Part shown: positions 6,224 through 8,674 of the stretch, piece by piece
Numbering within the stretch: position 1 is the first letter of the stretch
How the letters are laid out: each line of letters begins with the position of its first letter
DNA from: a bacterium
GTDB lineage: Bacteria > CG2-30-53-67 > CG2-30-70-394
Reading direction: 5' to 3'
Length of the DNA stretch: 8,674 nt
Assembly (NCBI GenBank): GCA_024278555.1
Contig: JAJRSX010000194.1
Span: 1 to 8,674, forward strand
Notes under the pieces: model-generated
The model's database searches: none
Seen by the model: only the letters and a program-made list of their open reading frames with translations
Told to the model about the DNA's origin: nothing
Position numbers and translations under genes: made by a program

Positions 6224-7804
6224 ATGACCGGCTACCTCTCCCTCGTCCTCCACGCCCACCTCCCCTTCGTCCGCCATCCGGACGACCCGACGGTGATGGA
6301 GGAGCGGTGGCTCTACGAGGCGATCGTCGAGACCTACCTGCCGCTGGTGCAGATGTTCGAGGGGCTCGCCCACGACGGCGTCCCCTGCCGGACCACCGTA
6401 TCGCTGTCGGCGCCGCTCATCTCGATGCTCACCGACGACCTGCTGAAGATCCGGGCGGCGGCCCACCTCGACCAGCTCATCGAGCTCGCGGACAAGGAGA
6501 TCGAGCGCACCGCCGACGAGCCGTACTACCAGCGGCTGGCGCACATGTACCGCGACCGCTTCGGCAAGCTTCGCCACACCTGGCAATGCCACGACGGCAA
6601 CCTGGTGGCCGCCTTCCGCAAGCTCCAGGAGCAGGGGGTGGTGGAGGTGATCACCTCCACCGCCACCCACGCCTTCTTCCCGTTGATGGACCAGAACTGG
6701 GCGGCCATGCGTGCCCAGGTCCACGTCGCCGCCGACCTCTACGAGCGCCACTTCGGCAAGCGCCCTCTGGGAATGTGGCTCGGCGAGTGCGGCTACATCC
6801 CCGGCGCCGACGAGCTCCTGCGCGAGGCGGGGGTGCGCTACTTCTTCGTCGACACCCATGGCATCCTCTACGCCGACCCACCGCCGGTCTACGGCGTCCA
6901 CGCCCCCCTCTACTGCGCCAGCGGCGTCGCCGCCTTTGGTCGCGACGTGGAGACCTCCCGCCAGGTGTGGTCGGCGCAGGAGGGTTACCCGGGAGACCCC
7001 CACTACCGCGACTTCTACCGCGACATCGGCTTCGACCTGCCACTGGAGTACATCGGCCCGTACATCCACCCGGAGGGCCACCGCCTCTACACCGGCCTCA
7101 AGTACCAGGCGATCACCCACGGCAAGCTGCACGACAAGTGGGTCTACGACCCGGAGATCGCCCGCGGCAAGGCGGGGCTCCACGCCACCGACTTCCGCAC
7201 CCGCCGGCAGCAACAGGTGCGCGACCTCGCCGCCCACATGGACCGGCCGCCGATCCTCGTCTCCCCCTACGACGCCGAGCTCTACGGCCACTGGTGGTTC
7301 GAGGGGATCCAGTTCCTCGACGACCTCTTCCGCCAGCTCCACTACGACCAGGACGAGGTCGAACCCCTCTCCCCCGGCGACTACCTCACCCGCCACCCCA
7401 CCAACCAGGCGGCCACCCCGTGCGCCTCCTCGTGGGGCCACAAGGGGTACAACGACTACTGGCTGTGCGAGCAAAACGCCTGGATCTACCGCCACCTCCA
7501 CGAGGCGGGCGAGCGGATGGTGGCGCTCGCCCACCGCTTCCCCGAGCCGAACGAGCTGGAGCGGCGGGCACTGAATCAGGCGGCGCGCGAACTCCTGCTG
7601 GCCCAATCGAGCGACTGGCCCTTCATCATGCGCACCGGCACCACCGTCGGCTACGCCGAGCGCCGCTTCAACAGCCACACGGTCCGCTTCAACCAACTCT
7701 ACGACGGCCTCACCAAGGGCGAGATCGACGAGGCGGCCCTGGGGGCGATGGAGGCCGAGGACAACCTCTTCCCGGAGATCGACTACCGGGTCTACGGCCG
7801 CTGA
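6224..7804 (+). CDS. GH57 glycoside hydrolase, 1,4-alpha-glucan branching enzyme type
   Basis: A complete 526-residue cytoplasmic enzyme of glycoside hydrolase family 57. Branching enzymes of this type cut an alpha-1,4-glucan and rejoin it as an alpha-1,6 branch during glycogen synthesis. Visible family motifs in order: HAHLPFVRHP (10-19), W29, GMWLGECGY (183-191) with the nucleophile Glu188, and SPYDAELYGHWWFEG (347-361) with the acid/base Asp350. The C-terminal helical domain (from about 390) carries SSWGHKGYNDYWLCEQNAW with Trp404 and Trp413. These tryptophans sit at spacings like those of the active-site tryptophans in the characterised Thermococcus enzyme TK1436, as I recall it. Length also agrees with that group. 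It follows the DUF4912 gene by 156 bases on the same strand. No Shine-Dalgarno precedes the ATG at 6224. Branching rather than hydrolytic activity is inferred from family, not proved. Confidence 0.93.
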   Translation: MTGYLSLVLHAHLPFVRHPDDPTVMEERWLYEAIVETYLPLVQMFEGLAHDGVPCRTTVSLSAPLISMLTDDLLKIRAAAHLDQLIELADKEIERTADEPYYQRLAHMYRDRFGKLRHTWQCHDGNLVAAFRKLQEQGVVEVITSTATHAFFPLMDQNWAAMRAQVHVAADLYERHFGKRPLGMWLGECGYIPGADELLREAGVRYFFVDTHGILYADPPPVYGVHAPLYCASGVAAFGRDVETSRQVWSAQEGYPGDPHYRDFYRDIGFDLPLEYIGPYIHPEGHRLYTGLKYQAITHGKLHDKWVYDPEIARGKAGLHATDFRTRRQQQVRDLAAHMDRPPILVSPYDAELYGHWWFEGIQFLDDLFRQLHYDQDEVEPLSPGDYLTRHPTNQAATPCASSWGHKGYNDYWLCEQNAWIYRHLHEAGERMVALAHRFPEPNELERRALNQAARELLLAQSSDWPFIMRTGTTVGYAERRFNSHTVRFNQLYDGLTKGEIDEAALGAMEAEDNLFPEIDYRVYGR

Positions 7805-7851
7805 GGCCATCATCGTCGGTAGGATTCTCGCCCAGAGAGGCGGAGGACGGC

Positions 7852-7879
7852 GGGGGTGGGGAGGGGGAGGCAGGAGGGG
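7852..7879 (+). other. G-rich tract with near-canonical G-quadruplex pattern
   Basis: Four runs of four or five G (7852-7856, 7858-7861, 7863-7867, 7876-7879) separated by 1, 1 and 8 bases, about 50 bases after the GH57 stop. The last loop is one base longer than the usual 1-7 rule. In the transcript it could fold at the 3' end of the GH57 message. Confidence 0.4.
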
Positions 7880-7937
7880 AGGCGGTGTCGACGGCGGTGG
7901 GCCGGGGGATGGCGTGGGCCGGGAAGGCCATTTTGGC

Positions 7938-7963
7938 CACGGAATCCACGGAAAGACACGGAA
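7938..7963. repeat. CACGGAA repeat cluster (three copies)
   Basis: CACGGAA occurs at 7938-7944, 7947-7953 and 7957-7963, with periods of 9 and 10 bases, next to the hairpin GGCCA-TTT-TGGCC (7926-7938). I recall related intergenic repeats, read as CCGTGGATTCCGTGG on the other strand, in many bacterial genomes. A genome-wide count is needed to confirm that. Confidence 0.55.
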
Positions 7964-8050
7964 GGGAAACGAGCCACGGGTAGAGGCGTCGCTGGTGGTG
8001 AAGACCAGGGAACGGCGGGGGGCCTGGAAGGCAGGGCTCACAGCTGCTCT

Positions 8051-8142
8051 GGGGTCAGGCTTGCAAACTTGCAAGTTTGGATCTTGCTGTTGGCCACCAA
8101 AGGGCAAACTTGCAAGTTTGCAAAGGTTGCAAGCCTGACCCC
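8051..8142. mobile_element. REPIN-like non-autonomous element with 16-bp inverted ends
   Basis: GGGGTCAGGCTTGCAA (8051-8066) and TTGCAAGCCTGACCCC (8127-8142) are perfect 16-bp inverted repeats. Inside are two exact copies of the 16-bp palindrome CAAACTTGCAAGTTTG (8064-8079 and 8105-8120), separated by a 25-base centre containing TTGGCCACCAA. The layout, two inverted REP-like units around a short spacer, is that of a REPIN. The GGGGTCAGG-type end resembles sequences I know beside REP-associated tyrosine transposases (RAYT). No transposase is in the window, so any movement would depend on one elsewhere in the genome. Confidence 0.7.
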
Positions 8143-8246
8143 AATTCCTTCAGCCCCCCCGCCCCCGGCGCGGAGATCGGAGCCGACGATCTAGATGAGG
8201 CGGCCCCCGTGGTGAAACCGGTCCCCTCCCCGTACGATGGGCGGCC

Positions 8247-8674
8247 ATGTCGGGGAGACACCACACCTTTGCGGAGTTGGTCGGGATCATGGCGCGGTTG
8301 CGGGCGCCGGGGGGGTGTCCGTGGGATCGGGAGCAGACCTTTGAGTCCCTGCGCGCCTTTGTCATCGAGGAGGCGTACGAGGTGGTGGAGGCGATCGACT
8401 CGGGGGATCGGCGAGAGCTCGCCGAGGAGCTCGGTGATCTGCTCTTGCAGGTGGTCTTCCTCGCCGAGCTGGGCCGGGAGGAGGGGGCCTTCTCCATCGA
8501 CGACGTCACGGAGGCGATCTGCGCGAAGCTGATCCGCCGCCACCCCCACGTCTTCGGCGACGAGGGGGTGGCGGACACCGAGGAGCTGCTGCGCAACTGG
8601 GAGCGGATCAAGCAGGAGGAGCGGACGGCGAAGGGGGAGGCTGGGGGAGGGGAGGGGGCGAAGCCCGCCAAGGG
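8247..8674 (+). CDS. mazG: Nucleoside triphosphate pyrophosphohydrolase MazG (3' end beyond window)
   Basis: The frame opens at the ATG at 8247 and stays open to the window edge (142 complete codons). MazG hydrolyses non-canonical and surplus nucleoside triphosphates to monophosphate and pyrophosphate in the cytoplasm. The first MazG domain is complete: [20 protein letters not shown], then the metal-binding EEAYE (Glu41, Glu42, Glu45) and EELGDLL (Glu61, Asp64), then HPHVFGD (99-105) and [10 protein letters not shown] (117-126). The last residues ([14 protein letters not shown]) are the linker to the second domain, which lies beyond the window; full-length MazG is about 260-280 residues. No clear Shine-Dalgarno precedes the ATG. 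A TACGAT 8 bases upstream could be a -10 box, which would give a very short leader, but its -35 partner is poor. Confidence 0.93.
8633..8658 (+). other. mazG: G-quadruplex motif in the mazG linker
   Basis: G runs at 8633-8637, 8643-8647, 8649-8652 and 8654-8658, with loops of 5, 1 and 1 bases, meet the usual G3+N1-7 rule on the coding strand. They encode the glycine/glutamate-rich linker of MazG, where amino-acid constraint is low. Confidence 0.5.

Follow-up and report, generated by a model that had tools for sequence, protein, structure and literature searches.

The 92-bp element examined here, carried on contig C175 of the genome G000 (3.06 Mb in 211 contigs) within a stretch of 8,674 nucleotides (the window), is very probably a REPIN-like miniature element, itself non-autonomous, that ends in the terminal repeats of a TIRYT/RAYT-type Y1 transposase element present in the same genome. 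The Y1 transposase in question is of the HuH, IS200-like kind. The evidence consists of a family of copies, ends identical to those of the transposase element, HuH and Y---NP motifs in its protein, ends and transposase that changed together between two species, the absence of the element from a sister genome at this site and a subfamily with a common 9-bp insertion.

Architecture of the element and its repeat family

The original prediction described a compact REPIN in which a perfect 16-bp inverted repeat encloses two identical perfect palindromes. The outer arms (GGGGTCAGGCTTGCAA) are indeed fully complementary (Table 1) and extend to 21 nt at 95% (8050-8070 and 8123-8143). The two palindromes (CAAACTTGCAAGTTTG) are identical and perfect as described and sit inside perfect 19-nt inner arms (8061-8079 and 8105-8123), but they are not strictly enclosed, the first overlapping the outer arm by 3 nt. 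Compared with shuffled sequences, the element folds strongly both as single-stranded DNA (z = -6.3) and as RNA (z = -6.0), with none of 200 shuffles folding as well. Given these scores, and an end found 58 times in the genome against no occurrence of its reversed pattern, the element is no chance feature.

Table 1. Features of the element and its left flank (window coordinates)
Feature	Position	Strand	Remark
REPIN-like/TIR doublet, 92-bp subfamily	8051..8142	+	15 shorter doublets as relatives
Left terminal repeat GGGGTCAGGCTTGCAA	8051..8066	+	identical 16-mer at either end of the C170 transposase element
Right terminal repeat, inverted copy	8127..8142	-	
Perfect palindrome CAAACTTGCAAGTTTG, copy 1	8064..8079	.	
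Perfect palindrome CAAACTTGCAAGTTTG, copy 2	8105..8120	.	
Conserved spacer, family consensus GACCTCGCTGTTGGCCAYCAACGGG	8080..8104	+	sets doublet orientation
9-bp insertion AGGTTGCAA	8124..8132	+	common only to the window, C111 and C13 copies; precise position ambiguous
Left flank CTCT	8047..8050	+	left of 12/22 copies; target preference or part of end

A search of the genome for further copies was successful. Counts of elements rest on pattern and BLAST searches together with loci extracted from G000, and the pattern search recovered 55 exact copies of GGGGTCAGGCTTGCAA and three more with one mismatch (58 ends in total), with none for the reversed pattern used as a control. Many of the family copies are single ends. 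The extracted loci include 18 doublets of 75-92 bp, mostly 83 bp (eleven of 83 bp, one of 75 bp, two of 82 bp, one of 84 bp and three of 92 bp), as well as three 42-bp palindromic monomers, one of which lies inside a compound element. The monomer (GGGGTCAGGCTTGCAAACTTGCAAGTTTGCAAGCCTGACCCC) may have arisen from a doublet through a deletion running from one internal 16-bp direct repeat to the other. The family doublets have a common spacer, and the three 92-bp members, namely the window copy and its full-length relatives at C111:173-264 (97%) and C13:5756-5847 (96%), carry the same 9-bp insertion at the same place, which is what copying of a single variant would produce. The base preceding GGGG is a T in 21 of the 22 listed copies, and inverted matches between the left and right flanks of copies are in general short.

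Other repeats occur in the same genome. A second set, of the GGGGTCAGGTCTT type found at the ends of the C27 and C185 transposases, is present on C15, C19, C31, C106, C145, C171 and C185, while C43, C52, C78 and C31 bear single-ended copies that start with GGGGTCAGGCTTGCAAACTTGCAA, continue into a conserved tail of their own (about ATCACnCAnAACGCTCTGAAAGCA) and have no inverted partner. Within the window, a CACGGA-rich run (ggccacggaatccacggaaagacacggaaggg) occupies positions 7936-7966, and similar runs are found near some other family repeats.

Transposases sharing the ends in two sister species

Four Y1_Tnp genes are present in G000. One of them belongs to an element of 1,026 bp (C170:19262-20287) bounded by a 17-nt perfect inverted repeat, with the exact 16-mer GGGGTCAGGCTTGCAA at both ends (19262-19277 and 20272-20287), and it is the only transposase of this genome to bear the full 16-mer. 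The RAYT gene sought between such ends was therefore found, and the proposed tie between this type of end and RAYT transposases holds for a RAYT-like gene with ends identical over 16 bp. Its protein contains a HuH motif (PNHLHL) and a Y---NP motif (YIHLNP), matches the Pfam domains Y1_Tnp (43.6 bits) and, at its C-terminus, Bac_DnaA_C (38.6 bits), and scores 78 bits against the NCBIfam model REP_Tyr_transpos, for which the cut-off is 80. For its stop codon the gene uses the TGA within the terminal TGACCCC (19262-19268), so that the repeat supplies the codons of the final residues (LQA). A stop codon inside the terminal repeat TGACCCC is also seen in homologues L177, L179, L182, L189, L197 and others, and in the C104 and C168 genes of G001, a sister genome of the same genus and the other genome of that genus searched. 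Among 30 Desulfuromonadales homologues, the stop codon falls in an exact TGACCCC in 12 and in a degenerate TGAC form in 6 more.

No exact copy of GGGGTCAGGCTTGCAA was found in G001. This genome carries two transposases, 61% and 64% identical to that of C170, which form a single clade with it in a local tree (100/98). The first (C168:5006-6022, 61% identical) has GGGGTCAGTCCTGCAA at both ends. Copies of this 16-mer are scattered through G001, where C84 holds two doublets of it (150 and 142 bp), and no such ends were seen in the G000 loci examined. The second (C104) has GGGGTCAGGCATGCAA ends, of which no dispersed copies were seen. The dispersed repeats thus match the local transposase in each species, GGGGTCAGGCTTGCAA going with C170 in G000 and GGGGTCAGTCCTGCAA with C168 in G001, and ends and transposase have changed together between the two.

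The C27 and C185 transposases, other Y1 transposases of G000 with related GGGGTCA ends, could act instead of or besides that of C170. Both genes have GGGGTCAGGTCTT-type ends close by, the first 9 bases of which are common to the ends of the family, and the window element might accordingly be a MITE with GGCTTGCAA ends moved mainly by one of these two enzymes if it accepted GGGGTCA ends. This seems unlikely, as the full 16-mer is found on C170 only, the local tree sets C27 and C185 in another clade, whose ends read GGTCTT, and changes of ends between species track the C170 clade.

Outside the genus, a scan of species genomes for GGGGTCAGGCTTGCAAACTT returned three loci only, two in Desulfuromonadales and one in Nitrospinota. 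One of these, in a Desulfuromonadales MAG (L077:760 onward), holds a short remnant that resembles the start of a RAYT gene between GGGGTCAGGCTTGCAA-type ends and is what persists of an internally deleted transposase element.

Tandem units at the ends and the site upstream of mazG

Pairs of GGGGTCA 3-30 bp apart number 74, and the reversed control gives 2. In 73% of 86 pairs the sequences preceding the two copies are the same over at least 5 nt, compared with 5% when flanks are paired at random, and this holds for 14 of 17 pairs from Desulfuromonadales. For 40 of 108 ends in the loci examined, the adjacent 7 flank bases recur within about 60 nt upstream (3.7% at random positions), a proportion inflated for the whole genome because the loci were partly chosen by the GGGGTCA-pair pattern, which affects the within-pair flank comparison less. 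What separates the flank copies is usually the beginning of the element end, with GGGGTCA itself the commonest case. Such tandem units of flank and end are found for example at C203:1718-1742, C24:8543-8574, C171:1145-1301 and C147:22176-22260 in G000, and at the Desulfuromonadales loci L111, L117, L123 and L196. Some cases (for example L176, L196) are located in the first, very large contigs of other genomes, which makes assembly error improbable as the source of every one. Apart from regular tandem arrays, microhomology at the junctions looks weak (0-2 nt in most units), and simple microhomology slippage does not seem clearly favoured as their source. These units, made of 4-13 nt of flank plus the end and lying outside GGGGTCA-ended Y1 elements, might tentatively be regarded as the scar of repeated abortive replication-coupled starts that favour a point 7 nt into the end. 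They are possibly new, no description having been found in the literature.

Because the tandem units point to replication- or repair-like rearrangements at the ends, one might suppose that the dispersed repeats spread with no transposase involved, solely through template switching or recombination between palindromes. This is very improbable, as it leaves unexplained the exact identity to transposase ends, the species-specific way in which ends and transposase changed together and the presence of copies at unrelated flanks.

The window element is flanked by a GH57 gene (6224-7804) and by mazG, which starts at 8247, both recognised by domain search. In G001 the same two genes (89% and 85% DNA identity) are neighbours separated by about 50 bp, and their junction is devoid of the whole stretch of about 395 bp (7811-8205) that holds the element. 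It is therefore very unlikely to be a fixed regulatory site, a reading rejected on this synteny. Conservation at the locus across relatives, which would count against mobility, is contradicted by the absence of the whole intergenic stretch from the sister. The search for empty sites in relatives was answered in part only: the element is absent from the sister, but a precise 92-bp empty site was not found, more than the element being missing. At C203:1736 the sister likewise is without a longer stretch containing the element, and C203:9048 corresponds to a break in synteny with it. The suggestion that the palindromes serve mazG as a fixed upstream site, for protein binding or as a regulatory structure, to which a strong hairpin 104 bp from the start of that gene lends some appeal, is scarcely credible for a family found at dozens of unrelated loci, with no promoter- or terminator-like match at the window element and no such sequence before mazG in the sister. 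Other regulatory effects near mazG are conceivable but unsupported.

Relation to known systems and possible mechanism

The kind of element favoured here, a miniature element with the ends of a Y1 transposase element, is already known; what is new is the family itself, together with some details of its ends. TIRYTs, the TIR-associated tyrosine transposases of TIRtrons, are RAYT-like genes lying between inverted repeats with a GGGGWSAS motif, and their repeats are moderately abundant and dispersed, form some dimers and may overlap the 3' end of the gene (Di Nocera et al. 2013, PMC3733652). The C170 element shares with them a RAYT-like gene between long terminal inverted repeats, the GGGGWSAS motif (here GGGGTCAG) and, as in some published members, dispersed copies of the repeats (58 ends). 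It differs from published TIRYTs in its host lineage and repeat sequence, both new, in doublets having a conserved spacer and two nested palindromes, and in the joint change of end and transposase seen between sister species.

Subclass 2.1.2 of the TnpAREP transposases lies within RAYT group 1 (Quentin et al. 2018, PMC6006769) and includes 20 of the 26 published TIRYTs, with terminal repeats that are mostly GGGG[AT][CG]A[CG] (PMC6006769, PMC3733652). By its combination of domains and motifs, a Y1_Tnp core with HuH and Y---NP followed by a C-terminal Bac_DnaA_C, the C170 transposase would fit this subclass, the tree built here being a local one. The 2018 survey reported no REP-like sequences near subclass 2.1 genes (PMC6006769), whereas the C170 gene has a matching repeat family.

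With REPINs (Bertels and Rainey 2011, PMC3116915) the family shares two inverted palindromic repeats able to form a hairpin, dispersed doublets (18) and a RAYT in the genome. The REPIN reading holds in function. The family does not, however, consist of canonical REPs or REPINs but of TIRYT-type terminal repeats: the hairpin foot is GGGGTCAGG rather than GTAG or GTGG, the ends are the terminal repeats of the transposase element itself, and copies number in the tens, compared with the larger numbers usual for REPs. In a literature search with GGGGTCAGG, the matches listed were all unrelated.

From these comparisons we infer binding and cleavage by the transposase, a single-strand mechanism, mobility of the family and present-day activity. 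While the DNA of the region is single-stranded, its inverted arms would pair into a hairpin. The transposase of C170, or one closely related to it, would recognise the GGGGTCAGGCTTGCAA foot of this hairpin, cleave there via the catalytic tyrosine and insert a copy at a new site ending in T, often CTCT.

A DnaA-domain RAYT, from a class listed by a large survey as being without REP-like repeats, is now tied to a repeat family. The two sister species, with matched but different pairs of ends and transposases, provide a natural test of which residues read the end, and the tandem units of flank and end would be a trace, at the sequence level, of how these poorly understood transposases work.
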